From Rhodospirillum sp. (GTDB lineage: Bacteria; Pseudomonadota; Alphaproteobacteria; Rhodospirillales; Rhodospirillaceae), in NCBI GenBank assembly GCA_021741145.1, contig JAIOYK010000026.1:1-64000 (forward strand): a stretch of 64,000 nt of DNA, written 5' to 3'. Each line of letters begins with the position of its first letter. Position 1 is the stretch's first letter. A program made the position numbers and the translations under genes. The notes below the pieces were generated by a model. It made no database searches, was not told where the DNA came from, and was given only the letters and a program-made list of their open reading frames with translations. Below, in pieces: positions 54,883 through 62,922 of this stretch.

Positions 54883-55041
54883 GGCGAACCGACCAAGAAT
54901 GGACGCGTGGCCCGCCAATCCTGGCCACGCGTCCCACTCGGGAGCGCCTCTCCGGAGGGGGGAATCATCTCTCTCTCTTCCCCTCCCCGGGGAGAGCCCC
55001 TTTGTTTTTTTCCCACGGATGACCGACAGGGCGGACCGACC

Positions 55042-56262
55042 ATGGATGATGGACTTTCCCTCAAGGTGAAACTGCGACGCGCCGAGCGCATGCGCCAATG
55101 GCGGGCTTTTGGGCTGATCGCCCCCATGTTGCTGTTCCTGGTGGTCATCTTCGTGGTGCCCATCGCCGACATGCTTCGCCGCTCCGTCCATGACGTGGAC
55201 TTATCGGAGGTCTGGCCCCGAACCACCCAGGCCATCGGCGCGTGGACCGACCGGACCCAGGCGCCGGACGAACCGATCTTCGCCGCCCTGGCCCAGGACA
55301 TCCGGGATTCCCAGGCCAACCGGACGCTGGCCACCGCCGCCCGGCGCCTGAACTACGATTTCTCCGGATCCCGGAGCCTGATCTTCGGCACCGCCCGTGC
55401 CCTACCCGAGGACGCCCCCTCCTGGAAAGCCGCGGTCCTGGAGGCCAACGACACATGGGCCAGCCCGGAAATCTGGGCGGCCATCGACCGGGCGAGCGGC
55501 CCGATCACGGCCTTTTTCCTCCTCCAGGCCCTGGACCTGGAGCGGGACCCCATGGGTAACCTGCGCGCCGCGCCGGAGGATGAGTCCATTTACCTGGACG
55601 TTCTGGCCCGCACCTTCGGGGTCAGCCTGTCGGTGACCCTGCTCTGTCTGGCCTTGGGCTTTCCCGTCGCCTACCTGCTGGCCACCCTGCCGCCCAGCAA
55701 GGCCAACCCCCTGATGATCCTGGTGTTGCTGCCCTTCTGGACCTCCCTTCTGGTGCGCACCGCGGCCTGGATCGTCCTTCTCCAGGACCAAGGATTGGTC
55801 AATGGCGCCCTGCAATGGATGGGGATCATCGAGCACCCCATCCGCCTGATTTTCAACCGGGCGGGCGTTCTGATCGCCATGACACACGTCCTTCTGCCCT
55901 TCATGATCCTGCCGCTCTATTCGGTGATGAAGGGAATCCCGCCGGTCTACATGCGCGCGGCCCGGTCCCTGGGGGCGCCGCCGACCGTGGCCTTTCTGAG
56001 GATCTACCTGCCCCAAACCCTGCCGGGCATCGCCGCGGGCACCCTGCTGACCTTTATCATCGCCCTTGGGTACTACATCACCCCGGCCCTGATTGGTGGC
56101 GCCGCCGACCAGATGGTCAGCTATTTCATCGCCTTCTACACCTCCGACACGGTCAACTGGGGCATGGCCTCGGCGCTCGGCACGGTCCTGCTGACAGCGA
56201 CGTTGATCCTCTACACCATCTACAACCGGCTGATCGGCGCCGACCAAGTGAAACTCGGCTAG
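55042..56262 (+). CDS. Polyamine ABC transporter permease 1 (PotB type) with long insert
   Basis: This is a PotB-type permease of 406 aa, about 120 longer than typical (280-290). Helix 1 is at residues 22-43. Residues about 50-185 form a polar, Ala/Arg-rich segment predicted to be periplasmic, then the normal core starts with TFGVSLSVTLLCLALGFPVAYLL and includes the docking loop RAARSLGAPPTVAFLRIYLP. The insert has no cysteine and is helical in composition (AALAQDIRDSQANRTLATAARR). Such inserts occur in other PotB-like proteins; its role is unknown. ATG at 55042. It precedes the PotC-like permease by 16 bases. Confidence 0.92.
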   Translation: MDDGLSLKVKLRRAERMRQWRAFGLIAPMLLFLVVIFVVPIADMLRRSVHDVDLSEVWPRTTQAIGAWTDRTQAPDEPIFAALAQDIRDSQANRTLATAARRLNYDFSGSRSLIFGTARALPEDAPSWKAAVLEANDTWASPEIWAAIDRASGPITAFFLLQALDLERDPMGNLRAAPEDESIYLDVLARTFGVSLSVTLLCLALGFPVAYLLATLPPSKANPLMILVLLPFWTSLLVRTAAWIVLLQDQGLVNGALQWMGIIEHPIRLIFNRAGVLIAMTHVLLPFMILPLYSVMKGIPPVYMRAARSLGAPPTVAFLRIYLPQTLPGIAAGTLLTFIIALGYYITPALIGGAADQMVSYFIAFYTSDTVNWGMASALGTVLLTATLILYTIYNRLIGADQVKLG

Positions 56263-56278
56263 GAAGGGAGACCGAACC

Positions 56279-57106
56279 ATGCGCTCCGCCCACAACCGCA
56301 CGACCGAGGAATGGATCTGGCTGGTCGTCCTTTGGGTCTCCGCCTGCGGCGTCCTGTTTTTCCTGATGGCCCCGATCCTGGCCATTATCCCCCTGTCCTT
56401 CAATGAGGGGCAGTTCCTGACCTATCCCCTTTCGGGCTTTTCCCTACGCTGGTACGAAGACTTTTTCACCGATGAGTCCTGGATCCGCGCCCTGAAAAAC
56501 AGCGTGATCATCGGCGTCGCCTCGACCCTGTTGGCCACGGTGCTGGGCACGCTGGCCTCCCTGGGGCTGATCAAGGCCACTTTCCGGGGCAAGGGATTCC
56601 TGATGGCGCTCCTGCTGTCGCCCATGATCGTGCCCCTGGTCATCACCGCCGTCGGCTTCTACCTGTTCTTCGCCCCCTATGGCCTGACCGCCAGCTATAC
56701 GGGCCTGATCCTGGCCCATACCGCCCTGGCCTCGCCCTTCGTGGTGATCGCGGTCAGCGCCACCCTGCAAGGCTTCGACATGAACCTCGCCCGGGCCGCG
56801 GCCGGTCTGGGCGCCGATCCGGTGACCGTCTTCCGCCGGGTCATGCTGCCCCTGATCGCCCCGGGCGTGGCCTCTGGCGCGCTGTTCGCCTTCGCCACCT
56901 CCTTCGACGAGGTGGTGGTGGTCCTGCTCGTCGCCGGGCCGGAACAACGCACCCTCCCCCGGGAAATGTTCAGCGGTATCCGCGAGAACATCAGTCCGAC
57001 GATTACCGCGGTGGCGACCATCCTGATTGTCTTCTCGACGCTCCTGTTGGTCTCGCTGGAAGTGCTACGGCGGCGGAATGAGCGGATGCGGGGGATCCGA
57101 GGGTAA
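56279..57106 (+). CDS. Polyamine ABC transporter permease 2 (PotC type)
   Basis: The second permease of the importer, 275 aa with six helices. It has SFNEGQFLTYPLSGFSLRWYEDFF-type opening (residues 40-63, a PotC hallmark), then SVIIGVASTLLATVLGTLASLGL, and the docking loop RAAAGLGADPVTVFRRVMLP. AAGGGAG precedes the ATG at 56279. The C-terminus is basic. It is the last gene of the operon; a 9-bp hairpin follows at 57138-57158. Confidence 0.94.
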   Translation: MRSAHNRTTEEWIWLVVLWVSACGVLFFLMAPILAIIPLSFNEGQFLTYPLSGFSLRWYEDFFTDESWIRALKNSVIIGVASTLLATVLGTLASLGLIKATFRGKGFLMALLLSPMIVPLVITAVGFYLFFAPYGLTASYTGLILAHTALASPFVVIAVSATLQGFDMNLARAAAGLGADPVTVFRRVMLPLIAPGVASGALFAFATSFDEVVVVLLVAGPEQRTLPREMFSGIRENISPTITAVATILIVFSTLLLVSLEVLRRRNERMRGIRG

Positions 57107-57137
57107 AACCAAGGCTGGGCTAGCACCCAGACCCGCT

Positions 57138-57158
57138 CGGGGAGGCTGGGCCTCCCCG
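57138..57158 (+). terminator. Hairpin after the polyamine transporter operon
   Basis: CGGGGAGGC (57138-57146) pairs with GCCTCCCCG (57150-57158) around TGG. A poor T-run follows (CCCCTTCTAAAAG). It is a likely terminator and resembles the hairpins of the 11-kb spacer. Confidence 0.6.
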
Positions 57159-57202
57159 AACCCCTTCTAAAAGCTACGAAAAAATCAGATCCCGTCCTTT
57201 TT

Positions 57203-57325
57203 GTCATCCCCGTGAAAACGGGGATCCAGGGTGGGAACAGGTGATGGAAGCGTTCGACGCGACAGGCGCGCATTTCACCCATGACATCGAAACAAACCCT
57301 AGATTCCCGCGTGCGCGGGAGTAAT
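57203..57325. repeat. Second, inverted copy of the 4.7-kb intergenic element
   Basis: GTCATCCCCGTGAAAACGGG begins an exact 30-base match (57203-57232) to the reverse complement of 4788-4817. The far end, ATTCCCGCGTGCGCGGGAGT (57303-57322), corresponds to the other terminus, imperfectly. The interior has diverged. The 443-base gap 57107-57549 contains no gene I can support; its right part is AT-rich. Confidence 0.8.
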
Positions 57326-57549
57326 AAACAAAAAAATACGTTTCCTAATTTCAGGAAGCAATAGAAATATTACATCCCCTAGCGTCATTCCAAGAAATGA
57401 CGGTAAAAATCCATCTTCTTCATCCTAGTAGAACTCTATGTGAAACGTTGAAACCACTCCTCCGTACTCATTCCTCTCTAAATGAGTGGAAATAATAAAA
57501 ATGAAATTTAGTCGATTTTATCAGGTTTCATCTTGACCAGAAGAATGCA

Positions 57550-58233
57550 CTAGAAGCCTTGGTAGACAATATAACTGATCTTATTTTCGCCCATCTCGGT
57601 CACCGCTATGGAGACGTTCCTGAAGTCAATGTGTCCGAGGGTTTTCGGATCGACTTCATAGACCAAATCCTGGGTGAAAGCCGGGCGAGCCAAGTCGTTC
57701 ACATACTCTCGGTAAGTCACCCGCAGTTCGGAAGCCACACGTCCCTGGTAGATGAGTTCCTTACGAAATCCCCCGCCCGACAAGTCGTATTTATCGACAT
57801 TATAGGCCAGGGATGGGACCTCGAAATCGATAGATTCCAATGTAGCCTCGACCCAATAGCGGTCGAATTTTTGATCATTGTTGTCGTCGAAGAAGCAAAT
57901 GCCCCGTTGTTCACCAAGATTGAAATAGACATTCGTTGTCGTGCAGTAAGCCTGCTTATCCCCAACTTTCGCTGGAATCAAAACCGTCCCCTGGGGAGCG
58001 TTTACCCGCGCAAAACCAATCGTTTCGGACACGCCGTCCACCAGAACGGCTCGCGTCGCCGCAGTGTAGGAATATTCCTGGAAGATCGTATCCCCCACCC
58101 GCGCGGTTGCCTCTAGGCCCAACTCAGGCTTCAGACCAGTTTCACGGACGGTCGCCGCCCGATCAACCCTGGCGGTTCCAGAACAACCCCCGATGGCAAA
58201 AACCGCAGCCATTACACCGGAAACCAACCACAT
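57550..58233 (-). CDS. Uncharacterised lipoprotein
   Basis: The 227-aa product has a lipoprotein signal: MWLVSGVMAAVFAIGGC, with a lipobox IGGC. The mature part is beta-rich (GDTIFQEYSYTAATRAVL, GYARVNAPQ-like GFARVNAPQGTVLIPA, ELRVTYREYVNDLARPAFTQ, HIDFRNVSIAVTEMGENKISYIV) and has an acidic stretch FDDNNDQKFDRYWVE that looks like a calcium-binding loop. Family not recognised. A longer frame to 58323 is possible but the lipobox supports 58233. It sits between the polyamine transporter and the PuuR-like regulator on the opposite strand from the transporter. Function unknown. Confidence 0.75.
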   Translation of the reverse strand: MWLVSGVMAAVFAIGGCSGTARVDRAATVRETGLKPELGLEATARVGDTIFQEYSYTAATRAVLVDGVSETIGFARVNAPQGTVLIPAKVGDKQAYCTTTNVYFNLGEQRGICFFDDNNDQKFDRYWVEATLESIDFEVPSLAYNVDKYDLSGGGFRKELIYQGRVASELRVTYREYVNDLARPAFTQDLVYEVDPKTLGHIDFRNVSIAVTEMGENKISYIVYQGF

Positions 58234-58338
58234 CTTTTCACAAGCCACCGGTCCACTCCCCCAAGAGAGCCACATACCCGTCGACAGTATCCCAGGGCTA
58301 CGCCCGCAGTCCATAAGGAACAACTAGGACTATCTCCC

Positions 58339-58905
58339 TTACAAATACGGCGGCGTACAGGCTGAGATCAGCACGCAAGGTTCGTCGAAGGGGTTCCGAA
58401 AGCGGTGCGGGCGGCGGCTGTCGAAGAGGTAGGCATCCCCCGGACCCAGGATGTGGCGCTCATCTTCCACCGTCAGTTCCATGCGTCCGGAAATGATAAT
58501 TCCCCCCTCCTCGGACTCGTGTTGAAGCAGGGTGCGCCCCGTGTCGGCGCCCGGGTCGTAGGTCTCGTGCAGGATCTGGAGGCCATGCTGGCGCGCGTCG
58601 CCCACCTGACGGAAGGCGATGGCCCCCTTGCTCTTGCGTTGAAGCTCGTGGGTGATCTCCGTCAGGTCCTCGGACCGGAAAACAATGCGATCCGGAGGGG
58701 GCATCTCCTGGCTGAAAAACTCCTGCAGCGACATGGGAATGCCCTGCAGCACCTTGCGAAGCGACGCCACCGAGGGGCTGCTGTGGTTCTGTTCGATCAG
58801 GGAAATGGTGCCGTTGGTCACCCCGGCCCGGCGCGCCAACTCCCGCTGGGACAGGCCATTGGCCTCGCGGATCGACCGAAGGCGCGCCCCCACATCCACA
58901 TCCAT
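58339..58905 (-). CDS. PuuR-like transcriptional regulator (XRE plus cupin)
   Basis: PuuR-type proteins repress polyamine catabolic genes. The 188-aa protein has an N-terminal XRE helix-turn-helix (ARLRSIREANGLSQRELARRAGVTNGTISLIEQ region, residues 7-39) and a C-terminal cupin domain (GRTLLQHESEEGGIIISGRM, ILGPGDAYLFDSRRPHRFRN). ATG at 58905 has GGGAG nine bases upstream; an ATG at 58920 is the alternative. It is divergent from gabD by 224 bases, with an inverted repeat in the spacer. Confidence 0.93.
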   Translation of the reverse strand: MDVDVGARLRSIREANGLSQRELARRAGVTNGTISLIEQNHSSPSVASLRKVLQGIPMSLQEFFSQEMPPPDRIVFRSEDLTEITHELQRKSKGAIAFRQVGDARQHGLQILHETYDPGADTGRTLLQHESEEGGIIISGRMELTVEDERHILGPGDAYLFDSRRPHRFRNPFDEPCVLISACTPPYL

Positions 58906-58986
58906 TCGTTCGGCTCCCATACACCCACGCGCGGGCTGTTTAGTTGTTTAGGATTTTAGATCACCCATGCACCAAGGCCAACCTCC

Positions 58987-59013
58987 TTAAACGCATTTCC
59001 CCCTTCCGTTTAA
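58987..59013. promoter_or_regulatory. Inverted repeat between PuuR-like and gabD genes
   Basis: TTAAACG (58987-58993) and CGTTTAA (59007-59013) flank a 13-base C-rich centre in the divergent spacer. ATTTTAGA-like repeats occur on both sides (58952-58960 and 59047-59055). It is a plausible operator for the regulator; exact binding sites cannot be told. Confidence 0.45.
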
Positions 59014-59129
59014 AATCATGGCACAGTCATCGGTGATATTGTTTATAATTTTAGACGGCTGTATGGTTTTGTCGAACAGAGGGTCAGCCCGGCCCTTTCC
59101 CCTACCGTCCCATGGGAGTGCCCCCCACG

Positions 59130-60596
59130 ATGCCCACCCTCTCCGACCCCGGTTTGCTCAAGACCCAGGCTTTCATTGGCGGCGCCTGGACCGACGCCGA
59201 TGACGGCGCCACCTTCCCCGTGACCAACCCGGCCAATGGAGAGGAGATCGCCCAGGTCCCCGACATGGGCGCCCAGGAAACCCACCGGGCCATCCGCGAC
59301 GCCGATGCCGCCATGACCGCCTGGAAAGCCCGCATCGCCAAGGACCGGGCTGGCGTTCTGCGCCGTTGGCATGACCTGATCCTCGCGGCCAAGGAAGACT
59401 TGGCGGTCCTGATGACCGCCGAGCAGGGCAAGCCCCTCGCCGAGGCCCGGGGTGAAGTGGCCTATGGCGCCAGCTTCATCGAGTGGTTCGCCGAGGAAGG
59501 CAAGCGCATGTATGGGGAGGTCATCCCCGCCCACGGCACGGACAAGCGCCTGCTGGTCCTGCGCCAGCCCATCGGCGTGGTCGCGGCCATCACCCCCTGG
59601 AACTTCCCCATGGCCATGATCACCCGCAAGGTCTCCCCGGCCCTGGCCGCGGGCTGCGCCGTGGTGGTCAAGCCCGGCGAGGACACTCCCCTCTCGGCCC
59701 TGGCCCTGGCCGAACTGGCTGTCCGGGCGGGCATGCCCGCGGGACTGTTCAATGTGGTGACCTGTTCCAAGCCCAAGGCACCAGAGGTCGGTGGCGCCCT
59801 GACATCCAGCCCCATCGTCCGCAAGCTCTCCTTCACCGGCTCCACGCCGGTGGGCAAGCTGCTGATGGCCCAATGCGCCGGAACCGTGAAAAAGGTTTCC
59901 CTGGAGCTGGGGGGCAACGCGCCCTTCATCGTCTTCGACGACGCCGACCTGGACGCCGCGGTCGAGGGCGCCCTGGCCTCCAAGTACCGCAACACCGGGC
60001 AGACCTGCGTCTGCGCCAACCGTCTGCTCGTCCAGGACGGGGTCTACGAGGCCTTCGCCGCCAAACTGGCCGAAGCGGTCAAAACCATGGCCGTCGGACC
60101 GGGCCTGGAGGGCGAAACCCAGCAGGGGCCATTGATCAACACCGCGGCCCTGGAGAAGGTCGACGCCCTGGTCCAGGACGCCCTGTCCAAGGGCGCCACC
60201 GCGACCCTGGGCGGCAAGCCCCATGCCCTGGGCGGAACCTTCTACGAGCCCACCATCCTGACCGGAGTCACCCCGGCCATGCGGGTGGCCAACGAGGAGA
60301 TCTTCGGTCCCGTCGCCCCCCTCTTCCGCTTCAAGACCGAGGAAGACGCCATTCACATGGCCAATGACACGCCCTTCGGCTTGGCCGCCTATTTCTACGC
60401 CCGCGACGTGGGCCGGGTCTGGCGGGTCGCCGAGGCCCTGGAATACGGCATCGTTGGCATCAACGAGGGCATCATCTCCACGGAATCCGCGCCCTTCGGC
60501 GGGGTCAAGGAATCCGGCATCGGGCGGGAGGGCTCCCGCCACGGCCTGGATGACTTCACCGAGATGAAATACCTCTGCCTCGGCGGCGTGAAATAA
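59130..60596 (+). CDS. gabD: NAD(P)-dependent succinate-semialdehyde dehydrogenase
   Basis: GabD oxidises succinate semialdehyde to succinate, ending the GABA pathway. The 488-aa protein has TPWNFPMAMITRKVSPALAAG, the GSTPVGKLLM nucleotide contact, LELGGNAPFIVFDDADLD with the glutamate, and the catalytic cysteine C293 in TGQTCVCANR, followed by PFGGVKESGIGREGS. All are aldehyde-dehydrogenase marks of the GabD branch. I start at ATG 59130 (GGGAG upstream); ATG 59112 would add six residues. The gene precedes gabT by 35 bases. Confidence 0.95.
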   Translation: MPTLSDPGLLKTQAFIGGAWTDADDGATFPVTNPANGEEIAQVPDMGAQETHRAIRDADAAMTAWKARIAKDRAGVLRRWHDLILAAKEDLAVLMTAEQGKPLAEARGEVAYGASFIEWFAEEGKRMYGEVIPAHGTDKRLLVLRQPIGVVAAITPWNFPMAMITRKVSPALAAGCAVVVKPGEDTPLSALALAELAVRAGMPAGLFNVVTCSKPKAPEVGGALTSSPIVRKLSFTGSTPVGKLLMAQCAGTVKKVSLELGGNAPFIVFDDADLDAAVEGALASKYRNTGQTCVCANRLLVQDGVYEAFAAKLAEAVKTMAVGPGLEGETQQGPLINTAALEKVDALVQDALSKGATATLGGKPHALGGTFYEPTILTGVTPAMRVANEEIFGPVAPLFRFKTEEDAIHMANDTPFGLAAYFYARDVGRVWRVAEALEYGIVGINEGIISTESAPFGGVKESGIGREGSRHGLDDFTEMKYLCLGGVK

Positions 60597-60631
60597 GCCG
60601 AGTCCCCCTCCTATCCAATGGATCGAACATC

Positions 60632-61927
60632 ATGACCAAGACCACCAACGCCGCCTTGCAGGACCGTCGCCTCTCCGCCATTCCCCGGGGCGTGGCGACC
60701 ATGCTCCCCCGTTTCGCCGCCCGCGCCCAGGGCGCCGAGTTGTGGGACGTGGAGGGCAAACGCTACATCGATTTCGCCGGGGGCATCGCCGTCCTCAACA
60801 CCGGTCACAACCACCCCAAGGTCAAGGCCGCCGTCGCCGGGCAACTCGACAACTTCTCCCACACCTGCTTCCAGGTGGTCCCCTACGAGAGCTACATCGC
60901 CCTGGCCGAGCGACTCAACGCCCTGGTCCCCATCGCCGAACCCTGCCAGACCCTGTTCCTGACCACCGGCGCCGAGGCCGTCGAAAACGCCATCAAGGTC
61001 GCCCGGGCCCACACCGGCCGCCCCGGCGTGATCGCCTTCTCCGGCGGGTTCCATGGCCGCACGATGATGGGTATGGCGTTGACCGGCAAGGTGGCCCCCT
61101 ACAAGATCGGTTTCGGCCCCTTCCCCGGCGATGTCTACCATGTCCCCTATCCCAACGCCTATCACGGGATCTCCGTGGCCGACTCCCTGACCGCCCTGGA
61201 GGACCGCTTCAAGTCGGACATCGAGCCGAACCGGATCGCGGCCCTGATCCTGGAGCCGATCCAGGGGGAAGGCGGCTTTGTCATCTCCCCGCCCGAATGG
61301 GTCGCGGCCCTGCGCGAGATCTGCGACAAATACGGCATCCTGCTGATCGCCGACGAAATCCAGACCGGATTCGCCCGCACCGGCAAGATGTTCGCCATCG
61401 AACATAGCGGCGTCGAGCCGGACCTGATGACCATGGCCAAGTCCCTGGCGGGCGGATTCCCCCTTTCCGCGGTTACCGGCAAGGCCAGCATCATGGACTC
61501 CGCTGTTCCCGGCGGCCTGGGCGGCACCTATGCGGGCAGCCCCCTGGCCTGCGCCGCCGGTCTGGCGGTCCTCGACGTCATCGAGGAGGAAAAGCTGATC
61601 GAGCGGGCCATCCATCTCGGCGACCGCATGACCACCCGCCTGAAGGCACTCGCCAACCGCAACGACGTCTCCTGCATCGGTGACATCCGCGGTCAGGGCG
61701 CCATGGTGGCCATGGAACTGGTGAAGGATCGCGACGCCAACAGCCCCGATGCGGAGCTGACCAAGGCCCTGGTCCAGAAGGCCGCCGAAAATGGTCTGAT
61801 CCTGCTGTCCTGCGGCACCCGGGGCAATGTGATCCGCTTCCTCTCCCCGCTGGTCATCACCGACGCCCAATTGGACGAGGGCCTGGATATCCTGGAGGAC
61901 GCCCTGTTGTCCCTGCTCCAGATCTAA
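60632..61927 (+). CDS. gabT: 4-aminobutyrate aminotransferase
   Basis: GabT transfers the amino group of GABA to 2-oxoglutarate to give succinate semialdehyde. The 431-aa PLP enzyme has FAGGIAVLNTGHNHPKVKAAV, TTGAEAVENAIKVARAHTGRPGVIAF, the PLP-ring region GILLIADEIQTGFARTG and the Schiff-base lysine K270 in TMAKSLAGGFPL. It matches class III aminotransferases of the GabT/PuuE type, so it may also act on other omega-amino substrates. ATG at 60632. With gabD and the PuuR-like regulator it makes a GABA/polyamine degradation module. Confidence 0.95.
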   Translation: MTKTTNAALQDRRLSAIPRGVATMLPRFAARAQGAELWDVEGKRYIDFAGGIAVLNTGHNHPKVKAAVAGQLDNFSHTCFQVVPYESYIALAERLNALVPIAEPCQTLFLTTGAEAVENAIKVARAHTGRPGVIAFSGGFHGRTMMGMALTGKVAPYKIGFGPFPGDVYHVPYPNAYHGISVADSLTALEDRFKSDIEPNRIAALILEPIQGEGGFVISPPEWVAALREICDKYGILLIADEIQTGFARTGKMFAIEHSGVEPDLMTMAKSLAGGFPLSAVTGKASIMDSAVPGGLGGTYAGSPLACAAGLAVLDVIEEEKLIERAIHLGDRMTTRLKALANRNDVSCIGDIRGQGAMVAMELVKDRDANSPDAELTKALVQKAAENGLILLSCGTRGNVIRFLSPLVITDAQLDEGLDILEDALLSLLQI

Positions 61928-62121: not shown

Positions 62122-62922
62122 ATGACACATTTTTTTTCGAAATTGGTCCTATTGACTGTATGCGGATTGATTGGCTCGGTCGGATCAGCCTCCGCGGCGG
62201 CGATGTGCCAGGGCTTCGGCCCGCAGACGCCACGCGACATTTCCAATGTCGAAGGCACCAATACCCGGGTTTTTTCCGAGGCCCCGCCCGCGGATCAGCT
62301 CAATCTGTGCAACATCCACACCCATACGAACGCCGAGCATAAGGGACCGGGATTCACGGTATTCGCCGGTGATCAGGAGCATGGCGGATATCAATGCAAC
62401 GAGACCGCGTCTCTGTCGAAAGAAGAACTCGAGGATCCGGCCCATGGGCACGGCGCGTTTCACGGCATCGTTCCCGGCGACACGATCGAAGTGCATTGGG
62501 TCTATACATCCTGCGATGTCCCGCCCGGCGAGGGGCTCGAGTCGTGCATGAGTGATAGCTGCGCCAATCCGGAATTGCGCGTCGAATCTCAGGTTTTTCT
62601 CGTCGTGAACGATAAGAACGCCTTGAATTTCGCGGATTTCGCCTACGGCAACACGATTGTCAACGGTCTGCACCAACCAAAATCGCTTCCGACCGGCACC
62701 GGGACCCCGGTTGTGTTCGCCGGTTCCACCACCGGACCTAAATTCACGGAAGAGCATTGCTCACCCCTTCAGGTGACCTGGAGCGTGCGCCCGACCTGCG
62801 CGAAGATCGACGTCAATTCCCTATACAAATGGGCGGAAGACGGCAATGTCTTCCATGAGGAGCACTCCCATGGCGTCCGCCAGTTGGTAACCGCGCCCGA
62901 GTTGCTCGCGCCCATTAAGTGA
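62122..62922 (+). CDS. Delta-class carbonic anhydrase
   Basis: Delta-class carbonic anhydrases were described in diatoms and dinoflagellates; related proteins occur in bacteria. The 266-aa product has a signal peptide (cut about residue 25-26), then CNIHTHTNAEHKGPGF with histidines H66, H68, H73, a second histidine-rich segment DPAHGHGAFHGIVPGDTIEVHWVY (H108, H110, H114, H125), and cysteines C131, C142, C147 that may form disulfides. The arrangement of HxH and a later H fits the delta-class zinc ligands. It would act in the periplasm. ATG at 62122. It is isolated downstream of gabT and ends near a LysR gene. Confidence 0.82.
   Translation: MTHFFSKLVLLTVCGLIGSVGSASAAAMCQGFGPQTPRDISNVEGTNTRVFSEAPPADQLNLCNIHTHTNAEHKGPGFTVFAGDQEHGGYQCNETASLSKEELEDPAHGHGAFHGIVPGDTIEVHWVYTSCDVPPGEGLESCMSDSCANPELRVESQVFLVVNDKNALNFADFAYGNTIVNGLHQPKSLPTGTGTPVVFAGSTTGPKFTEEHCSPLQVTWSVRPTCAKIDVNSLYKWAEDGNVFHEEHSHGVRQLVTAPELLAPIK

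Follow-up and report, generated by a model that had tools for sequence, protein, structure and literature searches.

A delta-class carbonic anhydrase gene of Rhodospirillum sp. and the probable kinship of its family with the alpha class

Introduction

What purpose would an exported carbonic anhydrase (CA) of the delta class serve in a bacterium, and to which other CAs is such a protein related? These questions are raised by the gene at 62122-62922 of a 64,000-nucleotide stretch of a Rhodospirillum sp. genome (hereafter, the window). Reviews still present the delta class as confined to algae and protists (PMC8132391, PMC13098186), and a 2026 survey of the alpha, beta and gamma CAs considers it limited for the most part to diatoms and protozoa (PMC13098186). 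Textbooks cite the CAs as an example of convergent evolution, their classes being held unrelated; the same survey still calls delta and alpha structurally unrelated (PMC13098186), and no paper proposing their kinship was found in the open-access literature searched.

The gene adds one member to an established family, and public databases already name bacterial members of it. Of interest here are the extent of the delta family in Proteobacteria and its probable kinship with the alpha-CAs.

Identification of the gene and its product

The ORF runs from ATG to TGA and its 266-aa product matched the PF10563 'Delta carbonic anhydrase' profile with an E-value of 1.1e-68 and 231 bits (cut-off 26.3), from position 2 to position 181 of the 181 of the profile. 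The sequence-only reading was right in assigning the protein to the delta class. No NCBIfam model matched the protein, and sequence and profile searches of the PDB found no member of PF10563, that is, no solved structure of any member. The iota-class CAs (COG4337/COG4875), described in algae and also present in many bacteria, where they carry a signal peptide (PMC8132391), are a separate family. The features of the gene and its product are collected in Table 1.

Table 1. Position of the gene and of the features of its product in the window
Feature	Position	Strand	Basis
Delta-class carbonic anhydrase gene, 266 aa	62122-62922	+	Full PF10563 profile; Proteobacteria homologues at 41-76% identity
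Predicted Sec signal peptide, approximately residues 1-26, cleavage near A-S-A	62122-62199	+	Hydropathy and A-x-A heuristic; no lipobox
C29 (62206-62208) and C213 (62758-62760), located where bacterial alpha-CAs have a disulphide	62206-62760	+	C-x5-Q-x-P; Cys after TT-x-P
Q35-T-P37-R-D-I, proposed counterpart of alpha-CA Q28-S-P30-I-[ND]-I	62224-62241	+	Relaxed-cut hhalign to QSPIDI
C63 (62308-62310) and C142 (62545-62547), presumed disulphide	62308-62547	+	Both in 100% of 105 sequences
H66-T-H68-T-N-A-E72-H73, with two putative zinc ligands and the putative counterpart of gatekeeper E106 in alpha-CAs	62317-62340	+	All four numbered residues invariant
E123-V-H125-W-V, with the putative third zinc ligand (H125) and the putative counterpart of E117 in alpha-CAs	62488-62502	+	E123, H125 and V127 invariant
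G201-S-T203-T204-G-P, proposed counterpart of alpha-CA G-S-L-T199-T200-P-P	62722-62739	+	G201-G205 invariant; hhalign to GSLTTPP
V-T-W220-S-V, proposed counterpart of alpha-CA V-T-W209-I-V	62773-62787	+	W220 and V222 invariant; hhalign
H250-G-V-R253, possible counterpart of alpha-CA N244-x-R246	62869-62880	+	R253 in 100%, H250 in 99%

At the N-terminus stand a lysine (K7), a hydrophobic stretch whose best 10-residue Kyte-Doolittle mean is 2.95, and A-S-A preceding the mature part. This shape fits the signal peptide claimed earlier, and a comparable N-terminal hydrophobic stretch was found in 80 of 98 homologues by the same heuristic, which is not SignalP. The eight conserved cysteines of the protein are likewise as in an exported disulphide protein.

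Conserved residues and putative zinc site

Residue conservation was determined in an alignment of 105 bacterial sequences. H66, H68, H73 and H125 were present in all of them and H250 in 99%, with one change, while the set Q35, P37, H66, H68, E72, H73, E123, H125, E155, T203, T204, W220, H250 and R253 was identical in 104. Together with Q35 and P37, R38 and D39 were also invariant. H66, H68 and H125 are likely, judging from their conservation, to be the zinc ligands. The sequence-only reading had described two histidine-rich segments in the order of the zinc ligands; this stands for the segments NIHTHTNAEH and TIEVHW, but not for the other histidine clusters, which are unconserved. In particular, the 'HGHGAFH' loop (H108, H110 and H114) was discarded as a ligand candidate because its histidines vary among the 105 sequences, as does H245.

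The bacterial protein shares the PF10563 class with TWCA1 of Thalassiosira weissflogii, a likeness drawn through the Pfam profile, only bacterial sequences having been aligned. Its three conserved histidines resemble the zinc site of TWCA1, which PMC5876011 (citing Cox 2000) reports as His-coordinated. Unlike TWCA1, it is a bacterial protein with a bacterial signal peptide, outside any diatom CO2-concentrating mechanism.

Relationship to the alpha class

The ordered catalytic motifs of the alpha-CAs (HxH, E106, ExH119, TT199-200 and W209) are all found in the delta protein. The two families (PF00194 for alpha) share the colinear motifs Q-x-P, HxHxxxE[HN], ExHxV, GS-TT-P, V-T-W and R, as well as C-x5-Q-x-P, and the spacing of HxHxxxE[HN] equals that of HFHxPSE[HN] in bacterial alpha-CAs. 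They differ in that the stretch from EH to ExH is longer by approximately 40 residues in the delta protein, whose N-terminal part is shorter and lacks the H64 region, and which has TT-G-P in place of TT-P-P. A relaxed hhalign run, given no instruction on motifs, paired QTPRDI with QSPIDI, HTHTNAEH with the HxHxxSEN stretch, EVHWV with EMHLV, GSTTGP with GSLTTPP, and VTWSV with VTWIV.

The structure model of the window protein (59 homologues) was confident, with pLDDT 90.2 and pTM 0.86, and has H66/H68 and H125 on consecutive strands, the E123-V-H125-W-V strand following that of H66/H68. A second model, of a 47%-identical gammaproteobacterial-type member (44 sequences), was also confident (pLDDT 87.5). 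The order of elements agrees with that of solved alpha-CAs: H-x-H strand, E-x-H strand, further strands, TT following a strand, the W strand, a helix and R. All 50 PDB matches listed for each model were alpha-CAs or relatives with the alpha-CA fold (D8, PTPRG and PTPRZ), which makes these the closest solved folds; the best E-values were 6e-4 for the first model and 2e-5 for the second, in a Foldseek score that includes amino-acid similarity and is thus not fully independent of the motifs. In the viral protein library the best matches were the CA-like OPG105 proteins.

From this evidence we consider it probable that the delta class belongs to the alpha-CA superfamily as a branch that has diverged, and is not an independent invention, with an extra stretch inserted between the second zinc ligand and the third and with a shortened N-terminus, and that it constitutes a widespread exported CA of Proteobacteria. 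The other reading, that both classes converged on the same active site with no common ancestry, seems to us unlikely, and it draws on the sequence comparisons. The hhalign comparison of alpha with delta was not significant (E 0.07 as a single comparison), its score of 18.8 lying inside the range of shuffled profiles (mean 14.7, maximum 20.0); HMMER ranked the delta proteins among the decoys, with no separation; and PF00194 matched none of the 59 delta members even at E-values up to 10. The TM-scores of the fold matches, from 0.25 to 0.36 with large rmsd, stay under 0.5 and do not reach the value normally taken to indicate a shared fold, for which the long insertion and the shortened N-terminus may be responsible. 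Against convergence, the invariants picked separately in each family and scored for order and equal spacing gave 35.7, whereas 2000 shuffles gave 21.9 +/- 2.3 (maximum 31.5) and none of 29 other families exceeded 23.1; this scoring scheme was devised after the likeness had been noticed, so that the statistic is supportive and not a blind test. A composite motif was likewise written with both families in view, so that only the shuffle and other-family tests serve as statistics. In addition, two different models led to alpha-CA folds in all their listed PDB matches, as did the best viral matches, and convergence need not give the same order of the N-terminal Q-x-P, TT, W and R motifs. Given the non-significant profile comparisons and TM-scores near 0.3, homology is likely but not proven.

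If the delta class is related to the alpha class, there is one independent CA invention fewer. The unsolved delta active site could then be read from that of the alpha-CAs, and inhibitor chemistry could be reasoned across the two classes. On the reading as an alpha-CA branch, the bacterial delta proteins would be the bridge between bacterial alpha-CAs and the algal delta enzymes; they are small and single-domain, and suited to crystallography.

Distribution in bacteria

The earlier view of the delta class as known mainly from marine algae is outdated at database level. Of 399 genomes from the phylum 77 contained a PF10563 match, as did 16 of 385 from the class, and a scan with one genome per species yielded 406 coding stretches related to the delta-CA protein. 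The family is thus widespread in Proteobacteria, where NCBI already annotates members. Since it is held to be mainly diatom and protozoan (PMC13098186), the exported CA capacity of bacteria has probably been undercounted. Relatives include the annotated 'delta-class carbonic anhydrase' of Shewanella baltica and of Pseudoalteromonas and Piscirickettsia plasmids, and unannotated proteins of Roseibium, Jiella and others; these named relatives are 49-76% identical to the window protein.

The distribution is patchy. A single gammaproteobacterial-type family (f211) accounts for 52 of the 77 carriers in the phylum, while the window's own family has the gene in 4 of 37 genomes, and the one other genome of the same genus that was searched has none. 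The cysteines divide the sequences into two clades, 85 with eight conserved cysteines, the window protein included, and 20 with two: C29, C213, C92, C131, C147 and C226 co-vary, being jointly present in the former and jointly absent in the latter. The four carriers of the window's family are split between the clades, two in each, and in a quick tree with modest support, from which the clade placement was taken, the window protein and the other eight-Cys protein of its family do not form sister branches. Seven plasmid records carry the gene, four of them conjugative, under the NCBI name delta-class carbonic anhydrase, and transposase genes adjoin it in both plasmids examined. The patchiness, the clade split within the window's family and the plasmid copies suggest that the gene has spread by horizontal transfer. 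Phage records held no homologue and none was confirmed in viral contigs.

Several individual loci may be mentioned. In the conjugative plasmid pSBAL67801 of S. baltica the gene lies between IS6-like transposase and recombinase genes (L143:5027-7586). Two delta-CA genes lie close by each other in Tropicibacter naphthalenivorans (L030:6907-8714) and in an Azospirillaceae MAG (L077:4317-6745). Two remnants in f211 with an in-frame stop (G472:C24:82970-83239 and G676:C38:4130-4565) are apparent pseudogenes or assembly errors. An apparent mutual avoidance of alpha- and delta-CAs (3 genomes shared of 77 and 61, p=0.001) was dropped, being largely the effect of one family.

Proposed function

It is very probable that the gene encodes a zinc-dependent delta-class CA which is exported to the periplasm, where it would equilibrate CO2 and bicarbonate. 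Zinc would be held by H66, H68 and H125, and a zinc-bound hydroxide would attack CO2 to give bicarbonate in a reversible reaction. T203 and E72 would orient the hydroxide, the part played by T199 and E106 in the alpha-CAs, and E123 and R253 would take part in a supporting hydrogen-bond network; the roles of E72, E123, T203 and R253 are by analogy, through the proposed remote homology with the alpha class. The equilibration may trap CO2 lost by the cell or convert outside bicarbonate to CO2 at the membrane. For this scheme we infer the zinc, the activity, the periplasmic location and the physiological direction, and the role in periplasmic pH or bicarbonate supply suggested by the sequence-only reading is plausible.

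In a search of the host genome for CAs of the alpha, beta, zeta and delta classes, the delta-CA was the only exported one found: there are two beta-CAs, neither with an apparent signal peptide, and the PF00194 search found no alpha-CA. Outside the DNA available to the sequence-only reading, the genome has a form II RuBisCO with an adjoining CbbR gene, which the equilibration may help. The absence of carboxysome genes noted in the window extends to the whole genome, which has no BMC shell protein (PF00936), although RuBisCO is present. No DabA and no photosynthetic reaction-centre protein were found in it.

Two other purposes were weighed against general periplasmic equilibration. That the protein belongs to a CO2-supply or CO2-concentrating system for RuBisCO, as is thought for the diatom delta-CAs, is doubtful. 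The form II enzyme of the host favours it, and 43 of the 52 f211 carriers also have a RuBisCO match, but outside f211 only one of 25 carriers, the window genome, has a form I or II RuBisCO (form IV-like matches being set aside by score), the host lacks shell protein and DabA, and its delta-CA and RuBisCO genes lie on different contigs (C30 vs C42). Since carriers outside f211 almost never have RuBisCO, the delta-CA is not generally tied to carbon fixation, though it may serve fixation in this host, a weak link. We regard as improbable a protein that has kept the fold and the zinc site for another purpose, such as periplasmic zinc binding or storage, or as an adhesin or sensor in the manner of MrpH, PTPRG/PTPRZ or poxvirus D8. 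CA-like binding domains do occur among the fold matches, there are extra histidines in the 108-114 and 245-250 stretches, and MrpH binds zinc by an H-x-H...H site (PMC7444556). Those additional histidines are variable, however, and beyond the ligands E72, E123, T203, T204, W220 and R253 are invariant in the 105 proteins. Acatalytic CA relatives lose zinc ligands.

Gene neighbourhood

The delta-CA gene stands alone, as had been noted, 194 bp behind a GABA aminotransferase gene and facing a convergent LysR gene. Simple scans found no sigma-70 promoter match at the gene and no terminator behind it. Upstream, the region 54907-61927 holds genes for ABC transporter permeases, a PuuR-like regulator, succinate-semialdehyde dehydrogenase and the GABA aminotransferase, and is apparently a locus for putrescine/GABA use. 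Within it, the reverse strand (57550-58323) encodes a protein of 257 aa in which a lipobox-like GGC occurs and for which no Pfam family was matched (best E-value 0.084).

In several Rhodobacterales (L023, L047, L051, L054, L067, L070 and L079) an OmpR-type response regulator gene precedes the delta-CA gene by approximately 0.9-1.7 kb, and some gammaproteobacterial-type genomes have other two-component genes in its vicinity. The response regulator was rejected as a partner gene, and none is proposed, because the recurring regulators belong to different families and lie at different distances; regulation of the delta-CA by nearby two-component genes is possible, though the regulators differ. Conserved neighbours were sought in 104 delta-CA loci, and synteny was confined to close groups. 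The Roseibium loci appear, as judged by eye, to lie within a sugar-catabolism cluster.
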